A stretch of 64,000 bases of DNA from Anadara kagoshimensis (taxonomy: Eukaryota; Mollusca; Bivalvia; Arcoida; Arcidae). The notes beneath the pieces were generated by a model. The model worked only from the letters and a program-made list of their open reading frames with translations, made no database searches and had not been told where the DNA came from. Positions 20,515 to 61,826 of this stretch are shown here, piece after piece. The number at the start of each line of letters is the position of its first letter. The first letter of the stretch is position 1. The translations under genes were made by a program, and so were the position numbers. Location: contig CM037861.1 of NCBI GenBank assembly GCA_021292105.1, forward strand, positions 33,751,172 to 33,815,171, given 5' to 3'.

Positions 20515-22115
20515 TTACTGTACCGGTAGTTTATATTTTGTCTGTACCGGTAGTGAGTTTCTAGTAACAGAAACTCTGTACCGGTAGTTTTTATTGTGAT
20601 ACTTTAACTTCAGTCTCTCTGGGATACTGGGGAAATTTCTCTTTTTCCAGTCAGAGATTTTTAGTACTTTCATGCTTATTATGCTACCATATGATTTTAT
20701 CTAATTAGTTGTATAAGTATTATGGTAATGCAGCCACCACTTCCTTTTAAACATAACCCCTGTGGTAGCTTAGTTTGTAGAGTGGCTGCCACCCTACTGT
20801 TGTCTTTCAGTCATTGTTCCCTCTTTCCTTAGTATATACTGTGTCCAAGTCAGTTCCATTTTCTTCTCCTGATCTCATAGCTTATGTTGTTAGGTCTAGC
20901 TGTTTTCAATATTTTTTTCATTAGTTATTTTCTGTTGCCATCTTATTCTTAGTATCCTTCTGAGGCAATATGTTTGGAAGCTGTTTGTAAGAGGTATTCA
21001 TCTTTCTTATTCTTTTCCACGTTTTACTTTCATAAAACAATACTGGTCCTACTAATGTCTTAAATAGGTGCATCCTTGTATTTTTTCCAATATTTTTGGT
21101 GTTCCAAATCCTTCTAAGTCTATTTCTTTGAATTTGATTTAAGCCCTATCCTTGATGCCTCCTCAGTCATTTTGCTAGTCTTATCATTCAGGTCTTAGAA
21201 TTTGGAGGATAAAAGTGCTATATCTTCCGCAAACTCAAGACCTAACAATAATGTTGTAAAGTCACTTCTTATTTCTCATCTCACTCCATTTGTTGTTTTC
21301 TTTATCATCCAATCTATAACTATTAGAAAGAAACCCTGACATTACACATCCCTGTTTTACACCACTTTTAATAGCGAACCACTCTGATGTTTCATTTTCT
21401 TCAATGACAGAACATTCGAATCCCTCATATATCCCTCTTATAGCATTAGTGCTTTTGGTTGGAAACCCATAGCTCTTCGTTATCGTCCAAAGGCTCTTCC
21501 TGTGCACCGAGTCGAATGCCTTTTCAAAGTCCACAAAGTATGTGTATATTGGAGTTCTGAATTCATTTGCTTGTTCCAGTATTTTCTCAGGATGCTCTGT
21601 TGTTACTCTCCCTGCATGTTCCTTCCTTCCTGAGTCTCTTGTCCACTCCTGTCTTAATCCTTGCAATGACCATACAGCTATATTCCTTGCTAATGACTGA
21701 TAGTAAACACACTAGCAAATCTCAAGCACATAGATTAATTCTCAGAGGCTAATAATCTTGTTCTTGTCGCGAATAGTAGCTTACGTTTAATAATATTTCT
21801 ATATTATAGCTATCACCCCCTCGGTTCTTGCAATATGAAAATTTGAGTAATAAATTGCCAAAACATGCTACAGTATACGATATATTTTAATGCAATTGCA
21901 AAATGTACTATAATTAAGGGACTATTGGTCTTTAATATTGTCCATAGCATATTTTGCTTCAATAGAAAAGCATGATTTATAATTTATAATTGAATTACTA
22001 AAAGTTCTAGTATAAAACTGAAAATCCCATCTAACTCGCATTAATGGCGTGGAAGAGAAAAGTAGCTACCGGTACAGAAACAATACAGATGTTGGAAACT
22101 ACCGGTACAGTTCTA
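20515..22115. mobile_element. Region bounded by inverted CTGTACCGGTAGTTT motifs
   Basis: Three direct CTGTACCGGTAG motifs at 20518-20603 face two or more complementary CTACCGGTACAG motifs at 22067-22112. They enclose about 1.6 kb that includes the LINE relic. Sub-terminal tandem motifs in inverted orientation resemble the ends of a DNA element, but target duplications were not found. Confidence 0.4.
20770..21720 (-). mobile_element. Decayed LINE reverse-transcriptase fragment
   Basis: The open segment 21262-21666 (minus) reads YTYFVDFEKAFDSVHRKSLW and later SEWFAIKSGVKQGCVMSGFL. These are RT palm motifs of non-LTR retrotransposons. Downstream, in other frames, come LEFAEDIALLSSK (the F/YADD box with D changed to E), NIGKNTRMHLFKTLVGPVLF and a WNWLGH-like block, ending near WQP at about 20795. 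At least three frame changes separate these pieces, so it is dead. It belongs to the same LINE family as 10160-10400. Confidence 0.75.
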
Positions 22116-27424: not shown

Positions 27425-29475
27425 CTGATTATCGGTATGTCGGCATACAGCCTTCGAATGTTCTTGAAAGATAATCGGTCTATTGCCATACAGCCCTCGA
27501 ATGTTCAAGATTATCGGTCTGTTGGCATACAGCCCTCGAATGTTCAAGATTATCGGTATGTCGGCATACAGCCCTCGAATGTTCAAGATTATCGGTATGT
27601 CGGCATACAGCCCTCGAATGTTCAAGATTATCGGTATGTCGGCATACAGCCCTCGAATGTTCAAGATTATCGGTATGTCGGCATACAGCCCTCGAATGTT
27701 CAAGATTATCGGTATGTCGGCATACAGCCCTCGAATGTTCAAGATTATCGGTATGTCGGCATACAGCCCTCGAATGTTCAAGATTATCGGTATGTCGGCA
27801 TACAGCTCTCGAATGTTCAAGATTATCGGTATGTCGGCATACAGCCCTCGAATGTTCATGAATATCGTTATGTTAGAATACAACCCTCGAATGTTCAAGA
27901 TAATCGGTCTGTTGGCATACAGGCCTCAAATGTTCAAATTATCGGTATGTCGGCATACAGCCCTCGAATGTTCAAGATTATCTGTATGTTGACATACAGC
28001 CCTCGAATGTTCAAGATTATCTGTATGTTGACATACAGCCCTCGAATGTTCAAGATTATCTGTATGTTGACATACAGCCCTCGAATGTTCAAGATTATCT
28101 GTATGTTGGCATACAACCCTCGAATGTTCAAGATTATCGGTATGTTGACATACAGCCCTCGAATGCTCAAGATTATCGGTATGTTGACATACAGCCCTCG
28201 GATGTTCAAGATTATCGACCTGTTGGCATACAGGCCTCGAATGTTCAAGATCATTGGTATGTTGACATACAGCCCTCGAATGATCAAGATAACCAGTATG
28301 TTGACATACAACCCTCGGATGTTCAAGATTATCGGTATGTTGACATACAACCCTCGGATGTTCAAGATTATCGGTATGTTGACATACAGCCCTCGAATGT
28401 TCAAGATCATTGGTATGTTGGCATACAACCCTCGAATGTTCAAGATTATCGGTATGTTGACATACAGCCCTTGAATGTTCAAGATCATTGGTATGTTGGC
28501 ATACAACCCTCGAATGTCCAAGATTTCGAGTCGTTATGTCAGCATACAACCCTTAAATGTCCAGGGTTATCCGTATGTCAGCATACAGCCCTTGAATGTC
28601 CAGGGTTATCCGTATGTCAGCATACAGCCCTTGAATGTCCAGGGTTATCCGTATGTCAGCATACAGCCCTTGAATGTCCAGGGTTATCCGTATGTCAGCA
28701 TACAACCCTTAAATGTCCAGGGTTATCCGTATGTCAGCATACAGCCCTTGAATGTCCAGGGTTATCCGTATGTCAGCATACAGCCCTTGAATGTCCAGGG
28801 TTATCCGTATGTCAGCATACAGCCCTTGAATGTCCAAGGTTATCCGTATGTCAGCATACAGCCCTTGAATGTCCAGGGTTATCCGTATGTCAGCACACAG
28901 CCCTTGAATGTCCAGGGTTATCCGTATGTCAGCATACAGCACTTGAATGTCCAGGGTTATCCGTATGTCAGCATACAGCCCTTGAATGTCCAGGGTTATC
29001 CGTATGTCAGCACACAGCCCTTGAATGTCCAGGGTTATCCGTATGTCAGCATACAGCACTTGAATGTCCAGGGTTATCTGTATGTCAGCACACAGCACTT
29101 GAATGTCCAGGGTTATACGTATGTCAGCATACAGCCCTTGAATGTCCAGGGTTATCCGTATGTCAGCATACAGCCCTTGAATGTCCAGGGTTATCCGTAT
29201 GTCAACATACAGCCCTTGAATGTCCAGGGTTATCCGTATGTCAGCATACAGCCCTTGAATGTCCAGGGTTATCCGTATGTCAGCATACAGCACTTGAATG
29301 TCCAGGGTTATCTGTATGTCAGCACACAGCACTTGAATGTCCAGGGTTATCTGTATGTCAGCACACAGCACTTGAATGTCCAGGGTTATCCGTATGTCAG
29401 CATACAGCCCTTGAATGTCCAGGGTTATCCGTATGTCAGCATACAGCTCTCGAGTGTTCAAGGGCATACTGTCCT
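27425..29475. repeat. 39-bp satellite array, ~50 units in three blocks
   Basis: The unit is exactly 39 bp and carries the dyad GTATG-N4-CATAC. Three homogeneous blocks follow each other. About 27437-27960 has TCGG between the dyad arms. About 27980-28520 has mostly TTGA or TTGG. About 28530-29450 has TCAG and AATGTCCAGGGTTATC instead of AATGTTCAAGATTATC. Because 39 is a multiple of three, long frames stay open on both strands (for example NVQDYRYVGIQPS repeats). I treat these as fortuitous. The array lies in intron 3 of the minus-strand gene model. Confidence 0.9.
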
Positions 29476-30540: not shown

Positions 30541-30987
30541 AGTAAAGTGTTTTACTTGATAATTTAATTAATCGCTGTAGCAAAATTCCAACAGATTAAT
30601 AAAACTGTTAATCGATAGTTTTAACACAATGTTTCGCAGTTTTATAAAATTACATGTATATTCAGTTATGATAAACATTTTGAAACTGTGGGTGTTATAT
30701 GTACCAGGAACACATTTTTTAATTCTGACCAATTAACTGAAAACTATAAGACAATGAAAATATCGCCAATATACTATTGCCATTATAAGTCAAGCGACCT
30801 TGAATAATAGTCAATTGTACTTTGCGCTCAATATAGCGGCTAAATCGCATTTTCTTTCGACATTTATAGCACATTTAAAGCTTTCTCTCCCTCTCTACGC
30901 GCACACGCGTGTGTGTTCTAAATCGCCTAGTGTGTGTTCTGCGACTTGTGCTAATTTTGAATGCATTATTTTAATAAAATAGCTTAC

Positions 30988-31844
30988 CTTCTATAGTACA
31001 AAACGCCTGCAATAAGCACTGCTATTATAACGATGGGAACAATTATTCCGATGGCAACTTTTCCCCCAGTGCTAAGCCCGCCTGCTTTTACTTTTAATTT
31101 TTTGGGTCGTGATGTAGTTGCGGTGTTACGTGTAGAGGATGCTATTGGTGTCGTTGTGGGAACTGCTGACGAACTAGCAGACATACTGGTATATTGTGTA
31201 GAACCTGTAACTGCAGTTTTGGACATTGACTGACTTGTAGAAGAGCTTGTTGGCATTATCGATATCGAATTTGAACTTGATCCGACAGTAGACACGGTGG
31301 CCGAAAATGTTGCTGTGATTCGAGCAGAAGAAATAGAATTTGAAAAATCCGTCTGCTGTGTAGATGAAGCAGTCATTTCTGACGTCATTAATGGCGTCGT
31401 TACGTCTGTTGATTGTACGTCCGTTTGTGTGGTTTCCGATGTTGTCTGAATCATGGAAGTCGGAACTATTCCCGTCGTTGAATCATAAAGCGATGTTGGT
31501 GTTGCTGTTATAACCAGTTCCGTTGAGTTGATGGATAACGTCACAGTCGTGTCGTTTATGGTTGCGGATGATGAACTCGGAGACACTGTTGTAGAACCAT
31601 TGTGGGAAGCTTCAGAACTTCCATCCGTGTCTGTTCTGTTTACTACTAGTTGACTGTAAAGCTGTCAGTGAAATGGTTTGTAACGTCACCGTCGGCTGTA
31701 ACAACACGCTGCCGTTTGTAAAGGTGGTGGAAGATACATTGTTTTCTATATTTAAAGCACTTGACGATATGGACTGAGTTACTATAACAGTTGAAGTCGA
31801 CGACGATAGTTCTATTGTTGGCGAGTTGGTGGGCACTGATGCAT
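30988..31844 (-). CDS. Main exon of a Ser/Thr-rich (mucin-like) single-pass membrane protein; frameshifted as assembled
   Basis: An acceptor (TTTGAACAG) precedes 31844 and a donor (AAG|GTAAGC) follows 30988. The first ~75 codons read PTNSPTIELSSSTSTVIV and on to LTALQSTSSKQNRHGWKF then stop. The continuation lies one base out of register: TDTDGSSEASHNGSTTVSPS and about 190 further residues, over half Ser, Thr or Ala, with several N-x-S/T sites. Near the end comes RPKKLKVKAGG, then the transmembrane segment VAIGIIVPIVIIAVLIAGVL and YYRR. The crossover falls at about 31610-31650. The frames on both sides keep the same composition, so this is one exon with a single-base insertion or two-base deletion in this assembly or allele. 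Predicted role: a heavily O-glycosylated cell-surface protein. No specific family recognised. Confidence 0.7.
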
Positions 31845-32214: not shown

Positions 32215-34045
32215 AACTAGACACTGTGCCGAGTGGTGTTTTTTTAAACAAGTTTTTCAACTTCAACTTTTCACTGTGCCGAGTATTTTTAATTAGACTC
32301 TGTGCAGAGATGTTTTTTTAACTAGACATTGTGCCAAGGGTGTTTTCAACTAGACACTGCCAAGCGTTTTTAACTAGACTCTGTGGCGAGTGTTTTTCGA
32401 CTAGACACTGTGCAGAGTGATTTTATTCAACTAGACACTGTGCCCAGCGTTTTAACTATACTCTGTGACAAGTGTTTTTTAACTAAACACTGTGGCGTAT
32501 GTTTTTAACTAGAAACTGTGCACTGTGTTTTTTTTTCAATTAGGCAACGAGCCGAGTATTTTTTAACTAGACACTGTCGAGTGTTTTTTTAACTAGACTC
32601 TGTGGCGAGCGTTTTTCAACCAGATGCGGTGCAGAGTGATTTTATTCAACTAGACACTGTGCCGAGCGTTTTAACTATACTCTGACGAGTGTTTTTTTAA
32701 CTAGACACTGTGCCGAGCGTTTTAACAAGACACTGTGCAAACTGTATTTTTCAACTAGACAATGTGGCGTATGTTTTCAACTAGACATTGGGCACTGTGT
32801 TTTTTTTCAATTAGGCGACGAGCCGAGTGTTTTTTAAATAGGCACTGTGCCGAGTGTTTTCAACTAAACATGTGACGAGCGTTTTTTTCAACAAGACACT
32901 GTGCACACTGTATTTTTCAACTAGGCAATGTGCAGACTGTATTTTGTCAGCTAGGCAATGTGTAGACTGTATTTTGTCAACTAGGCAATGTGTAGACTGT
33001 ATTTTGTCAACTAGGCAATGTGCAGACTGTATTTTGTCAACTAGGCAATGTGCCGACTGTATTTTGTCAACTAGGCAATGTGAATACTCTATTTTGTCAA
33101 CTAGGCAATGTGCACACTGTATTTTGTCAACTAGGCAATGTGCCGACTGTATTTTGTCAACTAGGCAATGTGCACACTGTATTTTGTCATCTAGGCAATG
33201 TGCCGACTGTATTTTGTCAACTAGGCAATGTGCAGACTGTGTTTTGTCAACTAGGCAATGTGCCGACTGTATTTTGTCAACTAGGCAATGTGCAGACTGT
33301 ATTTTGTCAACTAGGTAATGTGCCGACTGTATTTTGTCAACTAGGCAATGTGCCGACTGTATTTTGTCAACTAGGCAATGTGCACACTGTATTTTGTCAA
33401 CTAGGCAATGTGCACACTGTATTTTGTCATCTAGGCAATGTGCCGACTGTATTTTGTCAACTAGGCAATGTGCAGACTGTGTTTTGTCAACTAGGCAATG
33501 TGCAGACTGTGTTTTGTCAACTAGGCAATGTGCAGACTGTATTTTGTCAACTGGGCAATGTGCAGACTGTATTTTGTCAACTAGGTAATGTGCCGACTGT
33601 ATTTTGTCAACTAGGCAATGTGCCGACTGTATTTTGTCAACTAGGCAATGTGCCGACTGTATTTTGTCAACTAGGCAATGTGCCGAGTGTTTTTTTTTCA
33701 ACTAGACACTGTGTCCAGTGGGTTTTTTTTTCAACCAGACACTGTGTCAATTTTTTTCACTAGGTACTGTGCCGTGCGTTTTTTCAACTAGGTACTAAAT
33801 ATGCCGAATGTTTTGGTTTATTTTTTCAAGTAGACTCTGTGGCGTGTTTTTTTTCAACTAGACACTGTGCCAAGTGGGTTTTTTCAACAAGACGCTGTGC
33901 ACACTGTATTTTTTCAACTAGACAATGTCCAGGCTATATTTTTTCAACTAGGCAATGTGCCGAGTTTTTTTTTCAACTAGACACTGTGAAGAGTGTTATT
34001 TCTTCAATCAGACACTGTGCCGATTTCATTAAACATTCTATCTAG
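32215..34045. repeat. 30-bp satellite array with homogeneous core
   Basis: The core 32930-33690 consists of about 25 units of exactly 30 bp (ATTTTGTCAACTAGGCAATG plus TGCNNACTGT). It is flanked by diverged units of variable length containing CAACTAGACACTGTGCCGAG. Within the core a ~240-bp (8-unit) block at 33121-33300 is repeated at 33361-33540, with the same order of unit variants (CACACTGT, then GTCATCTAGG, then GTTTTGTC). It lies in intron 1 of the minus-strand gene model. The open frames (for example CAHCLVDKIQ repeats) follow from the multiple-of-three unit length. Confidence 0.9.
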
Positions 34046-45500: not shown

Positions 45501-46500
45501 NNNNNNNNNNNNNNNNNNNNNNNNNNNNNNNNNNNNNNNNNNNNNNNNNNNNNNNNNNNNNNNNNNNNNNNNNNNNNNNNNNNNNNNNNNNNNNNNNNNN
45601 NNNNNNNNNNNNNNNNNNNNNNNNNNNNNNNNNNNNNNNNNNNNNNNNNNNNNNNNNNNNNNNNNNNNNNNNNNNNNNNNNNNNNNNNNNNNNNNNNNNN
45701 NNNNNNNNNNNNNNNNNNNNNNNNNNNNNNNNNNNNNNNNNNNNNNNNNNNNNNNNNNNNNNNNNNNNNNNNNNNNNNNNNNNNNNNNNNNNNNNNNNNN
45801 NNNNNNNNNNNNNNNNNNNNNNNNNNNNNNNNNNNNNNNNNNNNNNNNNNNNNNNNNNNNNNNNNNNNNNNNNNNNNNNNNNNNNNNNNNNNNNNNNNNN
45901 NNNNNNNNNNNNNNNNNNNNNNNNNNNNNNNNNNNNNNNNNNNNNNNNNNNNNNNNNNNNNNNNNNNNNNNNNNNNNNNNNNNNNNNNNNNNNNNNNNNN
46001 NNNNNNNNNNNNNNNNNNNNNNNNNNNNNNNNNNNNNNNNNNNNNNNNNNNNNNNNNNNNNNNNNNNNNNNNNNNNNNNNNNNNNNNNNNNNNNNNNNNN
46101 NNNNNNNNNNNNNNNNNNNNNNNNNNNNNNNNNNNNNNNNNNNNNNNNNNNNNNNNNNNNNNNNNNNNNNNNNNNNNNNNNNNNNNNNNNNNNNNNNNNN
46201 NNNNNNNNNNNNNNNNNNNNNNNNNNNNNNNNNNNNNNNNNNNNNNNNNNNNNNNNNNNNNNNNNNNNNNNNNNNNNNNNNNNNNNNNNNNNNNNNNNNN
46301 NNNNNNNNNNNNNNNNNNNNNNNNNNNNNNNNNNNNNNNNNNNNNNNNNNNNNNNNNNNNNNNNNNNNNNNNNNNNNNNNNNNNNNNNNNNNNNNNNNNN
46401 NNNNNNNNNNNNNNNNNNNNNNNNNNNNNNNNNNNNNNNNNNNNNNNNNNNNNNNNNNNNNNNNNNNNNNNNNNNNNNNNNNNNNNNNNNNNNNNNNNNN
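45501..46500. other. Assembly gap (1000 N)
   Basis: Exactly 1000 N, a conventional placeholder for unknown distance. Any frame drawn across it is meaningless. Confidence 0.99.
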
Positions 46501-46518
46501 TTACATTTTATGTTTCAG

Positions 46519-46715
46519 GGTTATTGTAACTGGTGTGTTAGCTGCAGAATCCCTCACGTGTTACATTTTGTGTTTCAGGTTATTGTAACTGTGTGTTAGC
46601 CGACAGAATCCCTCACGAGTTACATTATTTAGATCTTTCATCCAACCATGCAGAAGACATTTATTGAAGATCAGAAAAACAAAAATATCATTTTGAACCA
46701 GTTCTCTACCAAATG
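46519..46715 (+). CDS. PLA2G6: PLA2G6-like exon beside the gap, disturbed (duplicated start, frame changes)
   Basis: After an acceptor (TTTTATGTTTCAG) the first codons read VIVTGVLA. The same acceptor plus start recurs 60 bp later (46579), and there another frame gives VLADRIPHELHYL. Together this resembles the VMLTGTLSDRQPAELHLF region of human iPLA2-beta. Later pieces in other frames are LFRSF and QKNKNIILNQFSTK, and the last bases give PN before a consensus donor (ATG|GTAAGT at 46716). The final G fits the next exon to read PNEQLIW, like PSDQLVW in the human protein. At least three frame changes occur in about 130 bp. Because this borders a gap, assembly error is as likely as pseudogenisation. 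Confidence 0.5.
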
Positions 46716-47454: not shown

Positions 47455-47606
47455 AACAGTTAATTTGGAAAGCAGCAGGTCATCAGGGCAGCACCAACCT
47501 ATTTCAGAGCAGCTGGAGGTTTGTCGATGGAGGAATGGCTGCTAATAACCCATCATTAGACATGCTGACAGAAATACAGGAATATAACATTGGTCTTAAA
47601 TTGAGA
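47455..47606 (+). CDS. PLA2G6: PLA2G6-like catalytic-Asp exon of a calcium-independent phospholipase A2
   Basis: Patatin-domain phospholipases hydrolyse membrane phospholipids at sn-2 with a Ser-Asp dyad. An acceptor (TTAATTTTTACACAG) precedes 47455 and a donor (AGA|GTAAGA) follows 47606. The 152-nt exon enters in phase 1 and leaves in phase 0. It encodes EQLIWKAAGHQGSTNLF, then RFVDGGMAANNPSLDMLTEI and QEYNIGLKLR. VDGG is the D-G-G/A motif that supplies the catalytic Asp. ANNP and TEI-x-EYN are strongly conserved in the iPLA2-beta subgroup. The exon is intact. The nucleophile (GTSTG) and ankyrin-repeat exons are not visible in this window. Confidence 0.85.
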
Positions 47607-48375
47607 GTAAGAAATTTAGTCAGAAAATACTATTGATTTTTATTTTTATCCCAATTAAACGAGTAGGGGGGGGGGTATTAAATTCAAAGATCTGTTGATC
47701 TGATCTTCCCACTTCTTGTCCAAAGTGATTCTCTCAAAATGAATCACAATTTTTGAACTTGGTTCAAAACATCAACAGGGATAGAAGATGTCCATTTCAC
47801 TAACAAGAGTTGCTTTGCTAATTTTCCTTGGAATCATGGCACTATAAAGTTTTCACATGAAATTATTATCATGAGTAAATCTCCAAAACTATGTTTCTAA
47901 GTTTACAAAACTAGGTATAAGTTATAAGTGATAGGAATTATGCATATTCTTAATCTGGATTGGTTTGGCTGTAATGCAAGGTGAAATGTATTAACATCGA
48001 AAGGAGATGTACAAATTAACCAGAGTTTGTTTGGTTATAACCAGTTAAGCTTATGGCATAGCATAGTGCGGGGGTTTTTGGGGTAGTAAATGTACCTGTA
48101 TAAGACTTTTATCTTGTCTATGAAACCAATTAAAACCAAAATTAGTGATGTCCCTAGGTGTCCTGAATTAAAAATAGTGGCTGGTGACTCCATTTGATGT
48201 CTAAGATGGTTGTCATTACTATAAATAGTCAAACAATAATTAATGGTTATTAGTTTGTTTAAATATAGACTGATTGAATTCAAATTTGGTAAGTGGAATG
48301 TAGAATGCCTAGCCATGTAACAGGTTTTCACTTCACCTTCACATTGGTGGGTTGTTAGCAGACAAATATAAATAT

Positions 48376-48490
48376 TACATTTCTGATAGGGTGACAGTCC
48401 CAAGAAATTCCATTGTCAAATGAGGCGAAGTGGTGGTTGACAATGAATTTCGAGGGGTGACTATATGGGCTGTCACCCTATCAGAAATAT
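48376..48490. mobile_element. Foldback/MITE-like inverted repeat
   Basis: CATTTCTGATAGGGTGACAG at the left pairs with CTGTCACCCTATCAGAAATA at the right. An inner pair, AAATTCCATTGTCAA and TTGACAATGAATTT, leaves a loop of about 20 nt. Confidence 0.7.
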
Positions 48491-49554
48491 GATTTTTTTT
48501 ATTATACCGTTTGTTGATGTTAATTATACTGTGCAACCAAAGTATACTGGATTGAAATTCATGACAGTCAGCTGTCGTTCGTAAGCAACTTTGAGATGCT
48601 TGTAGCATTTATCTATCATATTTTACATTACTCTAGAAAAGCGTTTTACACAATGCGATCGAACTGCATACACAGTTTTTCTGCATGTGACATTTTCGTA
48701 AAGTCAACCACTCAAGTAATGTCACCCTGTGACGTCAGATTTTCTGAGATCTGAGGGTGATATTAAATTTACCCAAACGCTTATTAACCAATCGGATTTC
48801 GAGAAATTTACAAAAGGTATAATAATATAAATTATTAGAAAATTTGAGTATTATTTACCGTACTGGTACATTTTAACATTCAAAGTCAATTAAACCATAT
48901 TAAATGCCTTATTTTTTTCTCTCTTCATTTTGTGATCATAAAAAGGTCAACTTTCAGAATCAATGTTTACATTTGAAATGTCTTTCAAAAATCAACCAGA
49001 AGGAATAAAAACATCCGGAAACCATCTACTCATGTAATTTATGCAACCATTAAACTACCAATTTTATTTTTACCAAAATAAGAGCATACATTACATATGT
49101 TTTCACAGAAGGTGCTAAATTTAATGGATTCTTTAAAAGTCTTCTCTGAAACTACTAGGTTCATTTAGTCCAAATTTGGTGTGAAAGGTCCCTTAGTTAC
49201 ATGAATTAAAAATAGTGTCTGATGACTGTTCAACATCCAAGATGACAGCCGTTACCATTAATAGACACATCAGTGAAATGGCTATTACCGGTACATGTTT
49301 ATTCATGTAAATACCACATTAATGCAAGTTGATTCACTTTTTTATTTGCACCATATTAGTGGAATATACTAATGAGATGCTTACTTTAGCCGATTCTTTA
49401 AAAATCTTCTTCTCTGACACAACTAGGCCAATTTTAACCAACTTTGGCTCAGAAGATACCATGGGGACCTGAATTAAAAATAGTATCTGGTGACTCTCAC
49501 AAATTATGCAAATCATGTGTAATATTTAGAAAATCTTCCTCTGTAACAACTAGG

Positions 49555-49625
49555 CAATTTAACGTCTTGATATAAGGGAAAAATTCTTGACTAGGACGTT
49601 AAACACCATTACTCAACTCAACTCA
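49555..49625 (+). repeat. 3' end of a Thr-type SINE
   Basis: AACGTCTTGATATAAGGGAA through ACACCATTACTCAACTCAAC matches the last part of the family consensus, including the (ACTCA)n tail. Confidence 0.75.
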
Positions 49626-50269
49626 CTAGGCCATTTGGAACCAATTGGTACGGAAGGTCCCTAGCTGGACTGATGAATGTTTGTACCAGGCGACACTGTT
49701 CGTCATGCAAGATGGCTACAATCTATTTAGAAAATCTTGCTATAAAAATGGCTTTTGGATTCAAGTTTCTACAGATATTGTTCAAATTTGAATTGCAGAT
49801 AGTAGATAGCAGGGCATTTAACATATTAAGAGGGTTTTACCAAAGAACTTTTTCATCAACACAATTTACACAAATTATGCAAATACTGTAAGGTGAAAAT
49901 TGTAATGTTTTTTGCTGTTTGGAATGCCTTCATGGTGTATGATGTCATTTAATGTTTGCTTGCTATGAATAAATGCATAAATGGAGTGTTAGTTGAGCAT
50001 TACCAGTCAGCCCTTTTGGGCCTCTTGTTCTTTGAGTTATGGCCTTTTGGATTTTTATAAATGGAAAATTCTTGTCTGGAGTATGTCTCCAAAACATTTA
50101 TCATAAGTTTGCCAAACAAAGTACATTGTAAACAGTATCAACACTCATAGAAGTGCATTATGTTATTAACTGGAGTTGGTTTGCCAATTGACGTATCGCC
50201 AGCCATGTCTTTAATGTTCCAACACTGGCTGCCATCACTGTACCAAAGCAACGTCATGGCACCTAATGA

Positions 50270-50830
50270 TAGGTATTGATACAACGATCATTTTGCTGTA
50301 TAGAAATAGGTCATGGGTTCAAAGGTCAAGGTCACAGATGCAAAACAATACAGAAATGGTTAATTATCTTGAAAACTATTGAACTTTTTGTGTAGGCATG
50401 TATATTAGAATGGTGTAGGTATTGATACAACAATCATTTTGATGTATAGAAAAAGGTCATGGGTTCAAAGGTTAAGGTCACAGATGTGAAACAATACCTA
50501 AAAGGTTATCTTGAAAACTATAAATTTCTTGTTCAGACATGTATATTAAAATATTGTTGGTATTTATGTTTAGATCATTTTGATATATAGATTAGGGCCA
50601 TGGGTTCAAAGGTCAAGGTCACAGATGCGAAACAATACTGAAATGGTTAATTATCTTGAAACTATTAACTTTTTGTATAGGCATGTATATTAGAATGTTG
50701 TAGGTATTGATACAACAATCATTTTGATGTAAAGAAAAAGTCATTAGGGTTTCCGTATTTATGTTTTCTTGAAATCTATCGACTAGCCATTATTTATCAG
50801 GTGAGCGTATCAGGCCCATGGGCCTCTTGT
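50270..50830. repeat. Tandem ~125-bp dispersed repeat, 3-4 copies
   Basis: AAGGTCATGGGTTCAAAGGT, AAGGTCACAGATGCGAAACA and GGCATGTATATTAGAATG recur at about 50310, 50455, 50595 and (partly) 50740, and again at 59590-59880. The block ends in GGCCCATGGGCCTCTTGTG, a palindrome-plus-CTCTTG ending also seen in the form CCCTTTTGGGCCTCTTG at about 50012. Confidence 0.7.
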
Positions 50831-52584
50831 GAAATAAAATCTCCAAAATTACTTACCTGTTTTTAAGTGACCGTAGACAGTTTCAACAGAGACAGGAAAT
50901 GTGCATGTTACATGTATAAACCAGAGTTTAGCTGTAAATTTAGCTTGGATTTATAGCTCTTTTAAAGTTTTCTTGCAAATTTGTGTCCAGCATAATTTTC
51001 AAAAACACTATCAAAAGGGTGTAACAACAGTGATAGATGTGCATATTATTGAACATGATTTAAAATCACATAAAAGATACAGCATCACAAAACCATATCA
51101 TAGTGATTTGGAAACATTTCAGAAGACAAATACCCATGAGAACTCTGAAGATATCACAAGCTTTCCATTTTTATTATGAGTGGAAGATGTCCAGCTGAAT
51201 GTTCATGCCAAGTACCATATATGTTGCACTTTAATTGCATTATGTACAATCATGTTGTCTTCACATCTTGTGTGCTGATTTTTAGCATAATTTACTAAAT
51301 CAGAGTTTGTACAGGCCTGGACAAGTCCTTAAATTTTTAGGTTTGCCCTTAAAAGACCCTAAAAACAAGCCTGACCCTAAAACACCCTTGAATTTATCCT
51401 TAAGGCCCTAAAATCCCTTGAATTTCGGCAGTTGGGTGTCTGTATTTGGATTTTAAGTGGTTGCAAATAGACTGATGTAAATAAGTAAATATTAATCAGG
51501 GGTCACACTGACTTCAATCTTTTTTTCTCCAAAACATTCGCCAGAACTTATTTTTTTTCGCCAAATATAATTTTTATTGGCCAAATATATTTCTGATCTA
51601 ATTGTAATTTCTAGCTAAAATTTAAAAGAAATAAAATTGTCTAATACAATGCATGTCTGATGACATGAAATACAACAACAGTTTTCTTGTTTTATTTTTT
51701 TATTCGATGACAAATTTGGAGCTTTAGCCAAATTCTCTAAGTCGTCAGTTTGTTTACGTTTAACCATAATGGCACAGTGGCGATATTGCCAATAATCTGA
51801 TTTCTTTGACTTCGCATGTCGATTTCTGTTGCTATGAATACAGTAGACTCAACGATATCATTATCACTTGGGTCAGTTTCCAATTGTTCTTCTTAAGTAG
51901 AAAAGTTGCGACGTATTTATGGAAATATATGGTATTTCACTCATATCGTCAAAAATTGAAATTGGGCCACCACGAAAATTGATGGTTTCATAGTAAATAA
52001 AAACAGTCTGTCCATTTTACTTGTAAACACAAACATGATGAACATAATGATACTGAATGATGCGGCATCATGCCATTCTGATCTGTCGTCTCCAGGTTGT
52101 ATGTAAATTACCATATAACACCCTGGCACTATACACAATACACAGTATTTATTTCTCCACAAGCTTCTATCAAAAAAGTTTATTTAAATTTATTCATATA
52201 AATATAAAGTCAAATTTTAAAGAAGCTCAGAAGACTCAAAGAATTTTTTTTCTATAAAAGATGGAATTTATATTAAAGTCTGTTTATACATGTTTATATC
52301 AAGAAAGATATCCTAGTTTGAATCATGCCACCCACTCAAAACGTTTTTTTCCTTACTGAAAATGTGATCAGACTATAGTTGTTTTATAGCAAACATAACC
52401 TTTGACACGTCATTCAATTTCAAATCACTCATGTGCCACAAACAACTTGCTGAAAATTAAAAAAAAAATCAAATTTTTAATAACATATATTTATTAGTTT
52501 CTACATGTCAGTTATTGTTGTTATATGTGTTCTACGTAGATGAACAACCATGTCAATTTTCAGATCAAATAATATCGCAATAGT
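50830..52584 (+). other. Intron of the PLA2G6-like gene, part 2
   Basis: No supported exon. A 53-codon open stretch ending at 51179 follows an acceptor-like TTTGTGTCCAG but has no donor or homology. Short internal repetition CCCTTGAATTT/CCCTAAAA is at 51330-51425. Confidence 0.4.
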
Positions 52585-52890
52585 ATTTTACTTCGAGTTG
52601 AGTTGAGTTGAGTTGAGTTGAATAATGGTGTTAAAGGTTCCTGTCAAGAATGTTTCACAAGATGTCCCCAGCTATAGGCGAAGGGGTAGTAGTTTTGCCT
52701 GTGCGTTGCACTGATGGCATTATACAGCAGGACCTCCTTTATTTTAAGTTCTCATCCAAAAGAACTGTGACTTTCATTTTGTAATACCGAGTGCTTGGGA
52801 AAAAAACAGTCACTACCCACTTTCAAGTTTTGGGTCAGACCCGGTCAGGGTTCAAACCCAAGACTTTCCACTTATGGAATTTTGGAATTC
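52585..52890 (-). repeat. Thr-type SINE with (TTGAG)n tail
   Basis: GAGTTGAGTTGAGTTGAG at 52597 is the complement of the (ACTCA)n tail. The body follows inverted to the B-box complement GGGTTCAAACCC at about 52849. Confidence 0.8.
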
Positions 52891-53137
52891 CGACAGTCAC
52901 TTCCTCCAATGTGGATAAGGGGGGGGGGCAACTCGTATATCATTTAATTTTAACGTTTTGAATTTTATAATCAGTGTGTTCTCTTTTCTTGTATTGTTTT
53001 TCACTTACTTGTATAAATGGTCCCTGACCTTGGCTGTTACTAAATGCAGTACATATCTATCAAACGTTTTACACAATCCTTGATTCACACAATCAGTTAA
53101 GGAAGTTGTGCGGAATCTGCAAGTTGTTATGTGTCTC

Positions 53138-53146
53138 TATAAATAG
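53138..53146 (+). promoter_or_regulatory. TATA box of the Mab-21/cGAS-like gene
   Basis: TATAAATAG is a full consensus TATA element, 52 bp before the ATG at 53199. That predicts initiation near 53165-53175 and a 5' UTR of about 25-35 nt without a leader intron. Confidence 0.6.
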
Positions 53147-53198
53147 TAACAGTATCTTTTTTCCCCAAATTTATTTCTTTCCTTTTGTAACTTGAGTT

Positions 53199-55088
53199 AT
53201 GGAGTCTCTTAATGTTCGGTTATGGAATGCTCTCTGTGATGTAGTTGGTAGTGAAGAAGAAATATTTATCAGAAGACGGTTATATCATTTCAATGACATA
53301 GTTGACCAAGCTGTGTATCACAAAAATATTTTCAAACCAGTTTTTAGTGGAAGTAAAGTAGAGGGTTTAAACCTTAAAGGAAGTGACTATGATGTGATGT
53401 ATATATGTAAAGATATATCTGTATTGCCATCAAATAGTGTAAATGATGATAGTTGTGACATTGTTATGGAAACAGATAATGTAAAACCAGGATTTGTGAG
53501 ACTTTGATGTAAAGGTGGAATGAGAAATAAAAGACATATTGCCTCAGCAATGACAGAGACAAGTCGTGGTTTGTATCTCTCCAGTTTATTATTTCGTGAT
53601 AATCTTGTATCAAGAGTAAAAGTACAAACACCTAATGCCTTTGCCCATGGACCATGTGCATCATTTACAAATGAAAGGAATGGTGATTATGATTTACTAG
53701 AATGTTTGTCCAGTAAATCATGGCCTGACATAACATTTGAATGGATTCATCGACAAAGACGAAACAACTGGCCATCAAGCACATTGATAAAAAATATCAT
53801 TGATGGTGGATGTCTGGTGGTTCCAATTGGAGATCCCAATTCTGAGCATAATTTTATGGAGTGGAGAATTTCATTTTCAGTGCCAGAGAAAAAGTTAATC
53901 TACTCTATGAATTATACACAATTTCTCTGTTACGCATTACTGAAACTATACCTAAAATATGTGATAAATTCAAATAATGAAGTTAAAGATTTGTTGTGTT
54001 CTTACTTTCTCAAAACAAGCTTGTTTTACTCTGTTGAGGAAGAACGCATTTCTTGGACAAAAGAGAACCTGTTTGATTGTTTCTTGGTGTGCTTGAGAAA
54101 GTTAATCTATTGGGTGAGGACTGGATACTGTCCAAATTTTTTCATCAAAGAGAACAACATGTTCCAAGGAAAGGTTTGTGGAGAGAAACAAAGAATATTA
54201 CTAAGTTGTCTCTCTGAGCTTTATCATGATGGAGTTATCAGGTTACGAGCAATACCGTATTTAGCCAGTATTTTTGATGGTACCATTCAGTCACTAATGC
54301 CATCAGAACTGAGGTGTGATATTGAGTTAACTTATGCTGCAGTATTCATATGGTCTAAGCACACATTGGCTAATAAGAAAGGTTGTTTTATGATAATGGA
54401 TACTATAACAAAAATACAAGACCAAACAGTATCAAATGTTGACAGAGCAATACTTACCCTCTTCTTGAATTCTGCAATGATGGTTTCTGTACAATGGTTA
54501 TATAGACAGACACTAAACCACAGCTCAAACAAAACATGTTACAAGGAGATACAAAAATTCAAAAGTTATATCATAAAGAACTGTATGAACCGTGATGAAT
54601 GCACCGCAAAGTTACTACTGGCTACTCTGTGTTATCTGAATGGTGAATATAGAGAAGTGGTGACAATTGTAGAGGAAGTATTGATCGTTAACGGCAGATA
54701 TATGACTATGTTGGATAATACCCCTGGTTACGTTGATGAAATACTTGACAAAGGACTAACTATACACCAAAAAGTAAAATTAGGTTTATTTTCAGATTTG
54801 TTCATTTGCCATCCTCACTGTGGATTTTATCCTCCAGAAGTTAAGTTAGAATTTATATGCCATGTAAAAGACGGTTATATATTGATGTCAACTGTAATAT
54901 ACATCAATCTTCTATTGTTTTTATCACACCATCACTTGAGATGGAAACAAAAAGTAAACAATGCTCTGATTGAACTTCACATAGCAGTACAAAGTAAATT
55001 AAATAGTGATAGTGAAAAATCACTTGCAATATCCCTTCTAGATAAATGTTTACAACTCGCTGAAACACATCAACAGAATTATGTATAA
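53199..55088 (+). CDS. Mab-21/cGAS-like nucleotidyltransferase (cGLR-type), intronless, one in-frame TGA
   Basis: Read as one frame this is 629 codons with a single TGA at codon 103. The part before it gives GSKVEGLNLKGSDYDVMYI (G51-S52, D63, D65), the GS..D-x-D nucleotidyltransferase motif. After it come HGPC (150-153), GDYDLLECL (D163, D165; candidate third metal ligand), WPDITFEW, the WPS..LI..I..GC block and EWRISFS (221-227), all hallmarks of the Mab-21 fold. A helical C-terminal part follows. cGAS-like receptors of this family sense nucleic acids and make cyclic dinucleotides that activate STING. The triad looks possible here, but no zinc ribbon of the cGAS type was seen. The ATG has G at -3 and +4. 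AATAAA is at 55452. The gene sits inside a PLA2G6 intron on the same strand. The TGA may be a null allele, recent pseudogenisation or sequence error. From M108 only a truncated protein without GS and D-x-D could be made. Confidence 0.8.
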
Positions 55089-55089
55089 T

Positions 55090-56056
55090 ATAGAACTGTT
55101 TTATGACTTATGTGGCGAGTGTAGCTAGCGAAACAGGAGGTGCTTACCATTCGGGAGCACCTGGCCTCACTTCACTGGTGGAAGTTTGGGTGTTTGACTT
55201 AATTTGTCAGTTTTTAAATTTTTTACTTTGCTGAGTAGGGATGCTTGTACATCCAAAAAGTCTGGACTCACTTGCGAGGTGGAGGTTTTATTGTTAAACT
55301 TATTTTGCCAGTTTTCAAAGTTTTTTCTTTGTTTTGGAATTGTGATATGGACATAGATTGGTGTTTCGATGATATAAACCACAATGAAGCAATGATTGAC
55401 ATTTCATGATATCAAATATTTTTGTTTACTGTTACTTGTACATGTTGTTTTAATAAATTTTAAAATATTTAAGTTACTGTGAAAGATATAAAGAATAAAA
55501 ATGGGTTCTTCAGGATTATAAATATGGTGAGAAAATTTGCTTTATCAATTGCCAAAGGTTGATTGCTTCTGTAAGGACTCCAGTTTTCCCTACTATTCTA
55601 GTACTAACCATCTTAATAAGTGAAATAATTTTTACTGGTCGTTAATAACCATCCAACCATTACACCAAATCTAGCAACCATCTTTGTGTCTTAGTAGCCA
55701 TTCGTCAAATACATTGTCAAATACATTGTCAAATATATGTAGTAAAATGTTGGTGGAAAGTTCCATGTACAGTTTAAGTGTTCATGCATAATTAAATAAA
55801 TAAATAAATAAATAAATGATTGAATTTAAAAAAACTGCCATCTTTGTATTGACCGACTAGATAAACACCTCCAATCAAACTAAATTATAAGCTATCCCAG
55901 TATTTGGTTTACATTATTAGGTATGGTTCTACTTTATTAAATATAATAATAATAAACTTTATTCCGAAAGTTTTACAACTTATAGGATATATAAATAATG
56001 GTAATTATAATGAAATATATGAGTACATACAGATAGGCAGTGGTATAATAATAATG

Positions 56057-56090
<34 letters not shown>

Positions 56091-58760
56091 TACAGTGGTA
56101 CAATAATAATACCGAATGATTAATAAGTAAGTAGAAAAATAGAACAGGGCTGTAGAAATATACAGAGAGATGTCCAGGAGATGCCCAGGAGATAAATTAA
56201 ATGAGACATCATATAACAGCTCTTAACTGGAATGCATGAGACAAATATTTCCCTAAATTTGACAGTTGTTTGACGTTGTTAACACGTAATAATTCTATAA
56301 ATATAAATATTTAAATATTTTCTTAATATTTTGTCCTTCTTATTTAAGAAAATATAAACAAGATTTTGGAAATGGCAATTCCAATAAAATTGCAAAGCAA
56401 TTAATGATAGAATTGACACTTTCAAAGTCTTGTTTATAACCCTGTTAACCACAATAAAACCAAAGTTACGAGTATGACCTATATTTACAATATTATTTGT
56501 TGACATTTGTGCTCAGCATTTGCTCAGAACTTGCAAAAGGCTAATCAGTTAACATTTCAAAATACTGGTAATCATTTCTTATCTGCTGGTTTTGTCAGTG
56601 AATGGAACAGAGCCATTTCAGAGCATTTAGCCCCGCCATCTTTGATGTCATTTCATTTCTTCAACACATTTAGCTCCACCTTCTTTGACATCACAATAAA
56701 CAACCTAAACCAAAATCAGATTTGACAGAGGTTGGAAGGTCTTGCTACCGATAGTTTACTTAAATGTAAACATTATTCTTATCAGTTAGTTTCTGTAAGA
56801 AAAAATTGATTGTAAATATTTTGTTTGCCATAACAAATTTGGGACATTACCTTGCTGCAACTTAGATTTTGCTGAAATGCCACCTAGCTATGTTTAAATG
56901 CACAATGGTAAGAGCGCACCATAGAAACAAATGTGAATGGATTATATTTGTTCTATTGTGAGATATGAATCGTCAGACATAACAAATTGGAACTGTTGAC
57001 ATATAGACATCATGAATGAAATATTTCAGGTTCCATCAGGCCAAATCAAAAAATGTTTTGTTTCTCCTTTCCTTACACAACCAATTTTAAGTTGCAACTA
57101 CCAAGTCCACTTTCAGTCAAAACATTTTTTCACGACTGGAAATCCATATCTTGATCATTTTTCATTTTAGATTTTATATTGATTGTTGTGTTGTGCTTAT
57201 TATAATTTCTGTGAGATTTCAAAACTCTTGTGACAACAGTGTTGCATTTAGAATGATGTAGTCTTGATACTTATATATACATGTAATACACACAAGGTGT
57301 CTTCAAAATTAATTCTAGACCCAATAATAACACTTTTGAGGCCCTTTCACAGCAAATTTTAAACATATAACATATACACCCACAGGAAGACAACACTTTG
57401 GATCAATAAGTAGCCTGTTGCATCTAAGAATTGTACAAGTTGATTGGTGACCAAACAACAAAAATCTTACATAAAATATTTGAGTTTGTCCTACCAATCC
57501 TAATTTTTAGTATGTAAGCAGAAACACAACATTTTTTTAAATGGCCTTAAAAAGTCACAGGGAGCATCAACATATTTTTACAGCCTGGTGCAATAATTTG
57601 ACCCATTAAGAAGTAGCTTGTCACATGGATCTATTTATGTAACTTATGTCACATTAAATGGTCAGTGATATAAGATACTATTGGTAATGGCAGCCATTTT
57701 GAATTTCAAATCATCAACAGATATATGTAAAAATAATAAACAGACCAAAATCAAAATAAATTTCTGCATATACTTGTGTACAAAATGCACAATAACAAAC
57801 TTTAAAAACATATTATTTGATTTTGGTGGCCATTTTGTCTGCCATATTAGAAATAGCGGCCATGTTGGATTTTTTGGTTGGCCCCATATCTGAAAATAAT
57901 CTCCAGGTCATGAACTTTAATCATGCCAAATTTCATGCTTTTAACCAAAAAAAAAATCCCATACTTTTATCAATTTTATGCACAAATCTGCAGGACTATA
58001 TGTACAAGTTATGTAAATTCTGAAAAAAATACATAAAATTTCAGTTTGATAACAGTAAGTTGATATTTTTGATTGTCACTTAGAGTAGCCTCTGTACCAG
58101 TTGATGATCTGAACGGAAACAGTGTTGATTAATAATAGCAACACATCAACAAGGAAACAAGGTTTATTTATTGTTATTGAAAATCATTTCCTTCCTTATG
58201 TACTTTCAGTTTCTTCATCCTTGTAAACAAAATACAAAAATGTATTGAATAATCATCTTTAACAAAGGAAGACAGCTGATGGGTACTTGTGAAATATTTC
58301 CTATATGATAAAAATCAAAGCTTAACCAGAATCCCCTATTCTTTAAAAATGCACCAATTAATAAACAGCATTTGAAAATTTTAAATTTGCCTGCATAGGA
58401 TAATCAAAACATTTTCATGTTTATTAAGGGATGGGTGGGTTTCAAGCACCTGTTATTGGTGCTGATGAGGGAAAATATCTGTTATACTATACTTACAAGA
58501 TATCATTAAGCTATTTTGCACTGGCACACTTTATTTGGTTTGCTTTGCATGACAATGGAAGTTTGTAGTCATTTCTAGACATTTCATTGGTAATATTTAC
58601 ATTTTACCACACCTGACCACAGTGAGCTTATTGAATAGCACAGCATGTGTATGTACGTTTGTGTGTGCCTTAGAGCATGTGTGTGCATCATTAAAACCTA
58701 TTTTCAACTTCTCTAAAACTACCAGACAGATTTCAATTAAATTTGGTGAGAAGTATATAT
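55090..58760 (+). other. Intron of the PLA2G6-like gene, part 3
   Basis: It holds the 3' UTR of the nested gene (to about 55475), (AAAT)n at 55795-55818 and (AAT)n at 56045-56090. 57300-58030 has phrases such as CATGCCAAATTTCATGCTTT that look like a dispersed element without visible ends. No exon was found. Confidence 0.45.
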
Positions 58761-58764
58761 AGGC

Positions 58765-59900
58765 AGGTGCAATTCAGATTTGTTTGTGGTGTTGCCATGG
58801 CTACCATAAGTAGGTCAAGGTGACCTAGGGGTGGAAAAATCTTAAAAAATCTTCTCCAAATGTGATGATTTGAGAACTAATCTGATGCGATATTTAGCTT
58901 CTCTATCATCTTAAATTGTTTATTTTGTGAAATTTAGACAAAAAAATAGGTTATGGGTTTTTGCATTTAATTTTGAAAAAATACTGTTGTAAAATAGCTT
59001 CAAATTGTTATAATATGACTATTTGATCAGATAATGACATGGGGTTTTTAGTTTTGACATATTATTGTAATTACCTTCAAAATGGAGTCAAGGTCAATTG
59101 TGAAGGTCATGACCTAATTTTTTACCTTTCTGATTTTATTCATTATATGGAAAACCATAAAATTTATGTATAGACATGTATATTAGAATGTTGTTGGTAT
59201 TGGTACAACAATCCTTTTATTATTTTTTATTACTGTGACCTAGGGATGCAAAAATCTTGAAAAATCTTCTTCTCTGAAACCGATGATGGGAGGAAAAATC
59301 TGATGTGATATTTGGCTTCTCTAGAGTCTTAAGCCTGTAGTTTGTTCATTTCGTGAAATTCGGTCGAAAAATGGGTTACGCGTTTTTGCGTTTAATTTTG
59401 AAAAAATCGTAAAATAGCTTCAAATTGTTATAACTTGACTATTTGACCAGATAATGACATGGGGTTTTCAGTTTTAACATCTTCTTGTTATTGTCTTCAA
59501 AATGAGGTCAAGGTCAATTGTGAAGGTCGTGACCTAATTTTTTTTACCTCTGATTATAAATATTATTTGGAAAACCATAACTTTTTGTATAGGCATGTAT
59601 ATTAGAATGTTGTAGGTATTGATACAACGATCATTTTGATGTATAGAAAAAGGTCATGGGTTCAAAGGTCAAGGTCACAGATGCGAAACAATACCGAAAT
59701 GGTTAATTATCTCGAAAACTATAAACTTTTTGTATAGGCATGTATATTAGAATGTTGTAGGTATCGATACAACGATCATTTTGATGTATGGAAAAAGGTC
59801 ATAGGTTCAAAGGTCAAGGTCACAGATGCAAAATAATACTTAAATGGTTAATTATTTAAAAAACTATAAACTATAGACACAATTTTGTATGGAGTTTTAT
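58765..59900. repeat. Composite dispersed repeat, internally tandem
   Basis: A ~470-bp block (GGTGACCTAG..., GATATTTGGCTTCTCTAGAG, TTTTGACCAGATAATGACAT-like) occurs twice, at about 58790-59190 and 59230-59600. It is followed by two copies of the GGTCACAGATGCGAAACAAT unit also seen at 50270-50830. The first block also occurs at 14620-14850. Confidence 0.7.
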
Positions 59901-60285
59901 TCAGTTATGTATGATTCAACTTTTTTTTTTTAAACTATTTACATATGTTCAGCATCATAAGAACCTGTACACCTGTAATTGACGGATCGCTGGCCGCGCC
60001 CACAATGTTCCAACAAAGGTCCGGCATGCTAGATTTACACGCAAAAAGCATGAAAACTCAGCCTGAATTGTGCCGTTAAATGACGTCACTGACACTAGTA
60101 TGTCATTAGTTGCCTGCTTTGGTACCGTGATGGCAGCCAGTGTCGGAACATAATAGTCATGGCCGGCGATAGGTCAATTATCAGTTAGATCTGATGTATT
60201 TTGCTGAATTATTGCAGTTTCCAAACTTGGAATTTTTATACTTAGAATATGGTCATAAATACAACTTTGTCAGTTTATTTAGTTA

Positions 60286-60860
60286 CAAGGGCGAGTCAAT
60301 AAGTAACCCAATGAAATGAGTCTGGACACCCATTGGGTGCCACCAACAAAAATGTGTAACAAAAGTTTGGATCTAGTATACTGTGATAGGCAAATTCGGC
60401 ATTTCACATGGTAGCCTTTTAACAAACTTACTTGATTGCTTAGGTAACAGCAAGCTCATTGGGTTCCCAAATCTCTTTGTAATGAGCAAATGGAAACCCC
60501 AGCATCAGTATGCAGCACCTTGTTGATGGCATTTCAGGTCAATAATTCTATAGGGCAAAATCGATATGAATTAATGCCACATATTGACTATTCACCTGAT
60601 CTAGCTACTAGTAACTTCTTCCTATTTACAAAATTGAAAAATTAATATCCATGGGCATCATTTTTGGTCTGACAAAGAAGTCTTGCAGACAGTTGAGGAT
60701 TGATACAATGGAAAGAACCCTGACCTTTTTAGTTCTGGGCTGATGGTACTTGAACACTTTGGTCTAGGTGCATCACACTAGAGGGCAATTACATTGAAAA
60801 AAAAAGAGGTGGATGTCAACCGAAAATAAATTATACTGGTTACTTATTGACTCTCCTTCC
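60286..60860 (+). mobile_element. Internally deleted mariner-type (Tc1/mariner) transposon relic
   Basis: The ends CAAGGGCGAGTCAATAAGTA and the complement of GGAAGGAGAGTCAATAAGTA are flanked by TA on each side (60284-60285 and 60861-60862). The interior still encodes DYSPDLATSNFFLFTKLK, the last catalytic-Asp motif of DD34D transposases, then FWSDKEVLQTVED. The N-terminal half of the transposase is missing, and further stops follow. It is inactive. Confidence 0.85.
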
Positions 60861-60949
60861 TATAATCTAATAATTGTGGAGCTGTTCACAGGTGTTTAGC
60901 TTCACATGAACTTGGGCACCTGCAATTATCAGTTTGATGTTAAATTATT

Positions 60950-61028
60950 ACCGGAAGGACGGATGGACACACAGACGGACACCCCTATCACTATATACCC
61001 CCCACTTTTTAAGCGGGGGGTATAATAA
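60950..61028. repeat. GACGGA-repeat plus CCCCCC/GGGGGG hairpin, end of a dispersed element
   Basis: GGACGGATGGACACACAGAC is followed by TATACCCCCC, a short loop and GGGGGGTATA. The perfect 10-bp stem looks like a terminal hairpin of a repeat family. The class is uncertain. Confidence 0.5.
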
Positions 61029-61116
61029 AGTGCCACTGTATTGGGTATAATCAGAAACATTGACTAGGCTAAATACTTTAACCTGTTTTAATACATGTGT
61101 TATCTTTTTTTTTCAG

Positions 61117-61287
61117 AATGAGAGCCATTTAGTTCATAAAATTGGTTGTTTTGTTTCTCTGGGTACAGGAAGGGTCCCATTGAAAGCTGTCAATAATCCT
61201 ATAGATGTCTTCATGCCAGAGGGGATATTTGACATAAAGAAGAGTATTGATGGAGTGACTGGTCTAATGAATATGTTTGTAGATCAA
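61117..61287 (+). CDS. PLA2G6: PLA2G6-like exon with VSLGTG motif
   Basis: Acceptor TATCTTTTTTTTTCAG before 61117, donor CAA|GTAAGT after 61287. The 171-nt exon (57 codons) is in phase 0 at both ends, matching the phase left by 47455-47606. It encodes NESHLVHKIGCFVSLGTGRV, PLKAVNNPIDVF and GVTGLMNMFVDQ. The human counterpart is the KLSIVVSLGTG..VDVF..K..GKMVVD region of iPLA2-beta, part of the patatin-domain core. The exon is intact. The next expected exons (CEMVGIQYFRLNP-like) are not seen before the window ends. Confidence 0.85.
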
Positions 61288-61826
61288 GTAAGTTAACAGA
61301 AGGAGTTAAGTCTGTCATGTGACTCCTGTCTGGTCTAATGGATATGTTTGTAGATCAAGTAAGTTAACAGAAGGAGTTCAGTCTGCGAAGTGACTCCTGA
61401 TTGGTCTAATGAATATGTTTGTAGATCAAGTAAGTTAACAGAAGGAGTTCAGTCTGTCAAGTGACTCCTGACTGGTCTAATGAATATGTTTGTAGATCAA
61501 GTAAGTTAACAGAAGGAGTTCAGTCTGTCAAGCCGCTCCTGACTGGTCTAATGAATATGTTTGTAGATCAAGTAAGTTAACAGAAGGAGTTCAGTCTCTC
61601 AAGCCATTCCTGACTGGTCTAATGAATATGTTTGTAGATCAAGTAATTTAACATAAGGAGTTCAGTCTGTCAAGTGACTCCTAACTGGCCTAATGAATAT
61701 GTTTGTAGATCAAGTAAGTTAACAGAAGGAGTTCAGTCTGTCAAGCCACTCCTGACTGGTCTAATGAATATGTTTGTAGATCAAGTAAGTTAACAGAAGG
61801 ACTTCAGTCTGGCAAATGACTCACGA
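61258..61826 (+). repeat. 71-bp tandem array, 8 copies, spanning an exon end and its splice donor
   Basis: GGTCTAATGAATATG recurs at 61261, 61332, 61403, 61474, 61545, 61616, 61687 (GGCC variant) and 61758, exactly 71 bp apart. The unit holds the last ~27 exonic bases, the donor ATCAAGTAAGTTAAC and ~35 intronic bases. Seven of eight units keep GTAAGTTAAC; the sixth has GTAATTTAAC. Confidence 0.95.

Follow-up and report, generated by a model that had tools for sequence, protein, structure and literature searches.

The window, by which we mean the whole stretch of 64,000 nucleotides that was analysed, contains a Mab-21/cGAS-like gene with a single coding exon inside an intron of an iPLA2-beta-like gene, and the coding frame is interrupted once by an early in-frame stop. 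The reading that we favour, and hold to be moderately probable as a whole, is that the stop in this nested gene is genuine and marks a segregating null allele or a very recent loss within a large immune family that changes fast. The locus, which carries an unconfirmed disablement, adds another member to a known family in which some other genes are likewise nested and consist of a single exon. The coordinates of its features are collected in Table 1.

Table 1. Features of the nested gene and its host gene, in window coordinates.
Feature	Position	Strand	Remarks
Upstream iPLA2 exon	47455..47606	+	Ends set by eye; full-length alignment needs three one-base frame changes
Intron of the host gene, about 13.5 kb, on the strand of the nested gene	47607..61116	+	Inferred from the exon ends
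TATAAATAG, possible TATA box	53138..53146	+	61 nt before the ATG; consensus match only
Stretch rich in pyrimidines, with a terminal AG, before the ATG	53164..53196	+	May be a 5' leader or a weak splice acceptor; by eye
Mab-21/cGLR-like coding frame, single exon	53199..55088	+	629 codons, interrupted once
FSGS-x10-DYDV, nucleotidyltransferase-like motif	53343..53396	+	Codons 49-66, upstream of the stop; from sequence
In-frame TGA	53505..53507	+	Codon 103, between DYDV and the third acidic motif
Codon of D165	53691..53693	+	Aligns with an Asp of cGLR1 8gjy and cGAS 7kxs
Mab-21_C helical domain	53928..54173	+	Residues 244-325; Pfam PF20266, E 1.3e-13, read-through protein
C-terminal extension	54186..55085	+	About 300 residues, without significant match
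AATAAA, possible polyadenylation signal	55452..55457	+	Another at 55494
Downstream iPLA2 exon	61117..61287	+	Ends set by eye; frame clean, no frame change

The coding frame and its single stop

The frame begins with ATG 53199 and is terminated by TAA 55086-55088. The sequence-only reading described a single frame of 629 codons with one stop at codon 103, and a recount agrees with this: the TGA is the sole internal stop, and no frame-breaking indels are found in the 1,887 nt. The remaining five frames of the same interval contain 26, 35, 48, 55 and 65 stops. As a control, 272 windows of 630 codons were taken from the forward strand of the flanks (overlapping, in 50-base steps, with the two flanks concatenated), and each of them holds at least 28 stops, with a mean of 44.5. 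Given these counts, a frame that is open but for one codon is not a chance opening. Immediately 5' of the ATG another TGA lies in frame at 53193-53195, thus without splicing the coding frame cannot extend further upstream. The gene had also been described as intronless, and a single coding exon, with one open frame but for codon 103, is indeed what is found.

It was further claimed that the gene has its own TATA box. The sequence TATAAATAG is present at 53138, but its position close to the ATG is no more than suggestive of a promoter element. The 8-mer TATAAATA occurs 16 times on the forward strand of the window and once on the reverse strand, and the 9-mer TATAAATAG occurs three times on the forward strand and never on the reverse strand. 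The pyrimidine-rich stretch, with its AG right before the ATG, makes an intron in the 5' UTR an alternative to a TATA promoter. The base at position -3 at the end of this stretch is G, which makes a weak splice acceptor.

Family assignment and active-site pattern

Judged by its sequence, the predicted protein is a member of the Mab-21/cGAS fold family, as had been proposed. The Mab-21_C profile (PF20266) lies well over its cut-off (51.4 bits against 24.1), and the piece after the stop matches it at E 1e-13. The Mab-21 nucleotidyltransferase profile (PF03281) falls just below its cut-off in the read-through protein (23.4 bits against 24.1, E 7e-5), and its alignment spans only profile positions 128-196 of 197. 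In PMC10732462, the PF03281 domain is used together with clade membership to define the cGLR superfamily. A C-terminal helix bundle joined to a nucleotidyltransferase core, also a criterion for the superfamily, is recognised here at the level of sequence.

Among the solved structures matched (50 distinct PDB sequences with E up to 1), the best is cGAS-like receptor 1 (8gjy, E 2.9e-16), followed by cGLR1 8gjw and then by cGAS at about 1e-7. Lower matches include MB21D2 (E 3e-5), MID51 (E 0.002) and MAB21L1 (E 0.23). The alignments to cGLR1 and cGAS fall within residues 161-337. All significant matches are carried by the piece downstream of the stop, and a search with just the 102-residue piece before the stop gave no significant match to a family or a structure. 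NCBIfam returned weak matches only, far below the cut-offs, and PADLOC returned none. No second Mab-21 copy was found within the window (next best tblastn match E 0.099). The 526-residue downstream piece was the only query in searches of virus, prokaryote and phage collections. These gave one candidate stretch in viral_contigs and 16 in genome_contigs, none of them confirmed, from collections of viruses and prokaryotes that are uninformative on animals, and no tblastn match up to E 0.1 in 50,697 phage records.

The motifs named in the sequence-only reading, including its GS..D-x-D motif, were all located in the frame. FSGS occupies residues 49-52 and DYDV residues 63-66, and they are followed by HGPC at 150, GDYD at 162, WP at 175 and 191, and EWRISFS at 221. 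The acidic residues D63 and D65 are both part of FSGS-x10-DYDV, 5' of the stop. D165, in the YDL triplet, and not D163, aligns with an Asp of 8gjy and cGAS 7kxs; we take this Asp to be the third catalytic one.

The strict active-site motif of cGLRs has been given as h[QT]GS X8-20 [DE]h[DE]h X50-90 h[DE]h (PMC9980059). The protein departs from this motif at two points, in that S stands where Q or T is required (FSGS against h[QT]GS) and 97 residues lie ahead of YDL where 50-90 are required. A relaxed pattern of our own is present. When the protein was shuffled 20,000 times, the strict pattern arose in 26 shuffles, the first half of the relaxed pattern in 551 and the whole relaxed pattern in 351. 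With the following WP included, a context chosen after the sequence had been seen, the relaxed pattern arose in none of the 20,000 shuffles. A single-sequence AlphaFold2 model has a pLDDT of 36 and a pTM of 0.24, values too low to inform on the active site.

The C-terminal 292 residues (54210-55085) were searched against the PDB, which gave nothing up to E 10, and against Pfam, where all matches are below the cut-off. No TPR profile reaches E 0.5 in the extension, and Pfam reported no HEPN, Ig or TRADD-N domain for the Mab-21 frame. In the low-confidence model the extension is predicted to be mostly helical. By analogy, an intact protein would most likely work like other cGAS-like receptors, in which case its nucleotidyltransferase face, bearing D63, D65 and D165, would close onto the helical bundle of Mab-21_C. 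The C-terminal arm, probably helical, may be used for binding of a partner or a ligand.

The host gene and the quality of the assembly

The nesting in a phospholipase intron that was claimed from the sequence is upheld by PLA2G6-like exons that flank the gene on the same strand. They were detected by tblastn with a human sequence as the query (E 4e-10 and 1e-4), and the downstream exon also matches iPLA2beta 6aun (E 0.0033). No further iPLA2 exons were found in the window by tblastn, the other matches being at E 2.5 or worse. An exon-like stretch at 46576-46695 was aligned by a method that tolerates frame changes and was not reported by tblastn, and it is a less certain exon. Its alignment to PLA2G6 needs up to four one-base frame changes under a self-chosen frame-shift penalty, and the exact counts of such changes are soft, above all in this stretch.

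A gap of 1000 N is present at 45501-46500. Both frame-shifted iPLA2 stretches adjoin it (within about 1 kb), and the nested frame is 6.7 kb away. The frame changes are new with respect to the sequence-only reading, which stated that nothing other than the stop looked decayed. This is correct for the Mab-21 frame but not for the host gene as assembled. We interpret the frame changes near the gap as the result of a low-quality consensus where a contig ends; the alternative is that the host gene is decaying too.

Several repeats accompany the host gene. Beside the gap, at 46501-46626, a 59-bp unit (2.1 copies) duplicates the beginning of the exon-like stretch together with an acceptor-like TTTCAG. 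At 61256-61822 a 71-bp unit in eight copies contains the 3' end of the iPLA2 exon and its GTAAGT donor, thus the exon end and the splice donor have been copied in tandem into the intron. The same satellite of about 141-145 bp occurs at 50270-50744 and 59562-59872, on both sides of the nested gene in the host intron. Elsewhere in the window there are two minisatellites, at 27427-29462 (39 bp, 52 copies) and 32301-34002 (about 30 bp, 59 copies), whose long open frames probably do not represent genes. The reverse strand carries a reverse transcriptase fragment at 21265-21711 (RVT_1, E 1e-10) and, at 30987-31664, a Ser/Thr-rich frame of 226 residues with a terminal transmembrane-like segment. The sole Pfam match of the latter up to E 0.5 is Rifin, which is below the cut-off and probably compositional.

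Origin of the nested gene

Spread by retroposition had been suggested for this gene and is not supported. No poly(A) tract was found near the gene end, where the only run of six or more A in 55089-56300 is one of 7 A at 55828. The flanks have no target-site duplication above chance: the longest word common to 52951-53199 and 55089-55700 is 9 nt, and 222 of 300 shuffles gave a common word of at least 9 nt. If the insertion is old, these marks of retroposition could have been lost. PMC1784063 describes the vertebrate MAB21L1 and MAB21L2 coding sequences as free of introns and located inside introns of NBEA and LRBA, and PMC11511899 also describes the two as intronless and nested in an intron of an unrelated gene. 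Because these relatives are both intronless and nested, the intronless state is not evidence for retroposition. Among the titles and abstract openings returned by the literature searches, none dealt with an intronless cGLR gene within an iPLA2 intron.

Meaning of the stop

It is likely that the stop is real, since the nested frame is free of the one-base shifts that are seen near the gap. With the actual codons of the frame, 4-6% of substitutions would create a stop. As a second disablement is absent, neutral change since the loss is at most about 1-2% (95% bound of about 1.1-2.2% across nine parameter settings, with indels allowed for). Change of this size is within the range of bivalve diversity. 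The bound fits a segregating null allele or a very recent loss, as the sequence-only reading proposed. It is compatible with an assembly error as well. The stop would then be an error of consensus or of haplotype merging, and the gene would be an ordinary, intact cGLR/Mab-21 gene. A lone disablement with all else open speaks for such an error, as do the 1000-N gap in the window, the three one-base frame changes needed in an iPLA2 exon and the up to four needed in the less certain one. However, the suspected errors are one-base frame changes, whereas here an in-frame stop is found in a frame that is unbroken over 1.9 kb, and the downstream iPLA2 exon is clean. An assembly error is considered rather unlikely. 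Still less weight is given to production of the full protein through readthrough, recoding or splicing out of the stop. The frame past the stop is fully open, and 205 GT-AG pairs (donor in 53199-53504, acceptor up to 53899, minimum intron length 40 nt) would excise the stop and keep the frame. However, when simple donor and acceptor rules were applied, no pair remained, and an intron that removes the stop was rejected on these grounds. Selenocysteine recoding was rejected as well, with nothing in the window reaching an Rfam threshold and no SECIS among the four weak matches in 53100-57100. Production of the full protein by any of these routes is highly improbable.

If the stop is genuine, as we favour, the transcript as read would give a 102-residue fragment that contains D63 and D65 and lacks D165. 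As no exon junction follows the stop, the interrupted transcript would probably escape splicing-dependent mRNA decay, thus re-initiation at ATG 53520 could yield a protein, which would have 522 residues and lack the first two acidic residues. It is unlikely that either the 102-residue or the 522-residue product would function as a cyclase. The gene may instead have been remodelled so that its product is this 522-residue Mab-21 pseudo-enzyme, without the first catalytic motif and acting by binding. The 522 codons from ATG 53520 are open, the downstream piece carries every significant match, and the structure matches include MID51 (E 0.002), presumably a non-cyclase pseudo-enzyme that acts by binding. 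However, the upstream 102 codons are also open and FSGS-x10-DYDV is still recognisable in them, which suggests constraint until recently, and translation of the 522-codon frame is predicted only. Remodelling is regarded as unlikely. It is a more remote thought that a real stop has made a two-part locus, in which a stable single-exon transcript would give a 522-residue decoy or scaffold in cGLR signalling that segregates beside full-length alleles; this is very unlikely.

If the stop segregates, it would provide a natural knockout with which to test whether single Mab-21/cGLR members matter for antiviral defence. The locus would then also inform on the speed of receptor turnover in the very large Mab-21/cGLR sets of some invertebrates.

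Comparison with known systems

More than 200 cGLR genes are present in each of Dreissena polymorpha and Crassostrea virginica (PMC9980059), and where a bivalve has so many such genes one broken copy is unsurprising. Massive gene presence-absence variation in mussels is described in the accessible part of PMC7653742, in which Mab-21 is not named. Given these large sets and this variation, single losses are to be expected if the DNA comes from such an animal.

The protein is like the animal cGLRs (PMC9980059) in its best structure match, 8gjy, in its GS...DxD followed by a third Asp, and in its Mab-21_C bundle. It differs from them in having FSGS for h[QT]GS, a spacing of 97 instead of 50-90 residues, an early stop, and a C-terminal part of about 300 residues without a significant match. 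Some cGLRs carry TPR or ankyrin modules (PMC9980059), and an oyster architecture in which a Mab-21-like cGAS domain is followed by TPRs is described in PMC8195603. Unlike that oyster protein, the protein described here has no TPR profile to E 0.5 and no reported HEPN, Ig or TRADD-N domain; in both, a Mab-21 domain precedes a long C-terminal part that may be helical. For MAB21L1 and MAB21L2, the host gene is different (iPLA2-beta-like here, not NBEA or LRBA) and the sequence match to MAB21L1 is weak (E 0.23), but an intronless coding sequence within the intron of an unrelated gene is common to them and to the gene described here.
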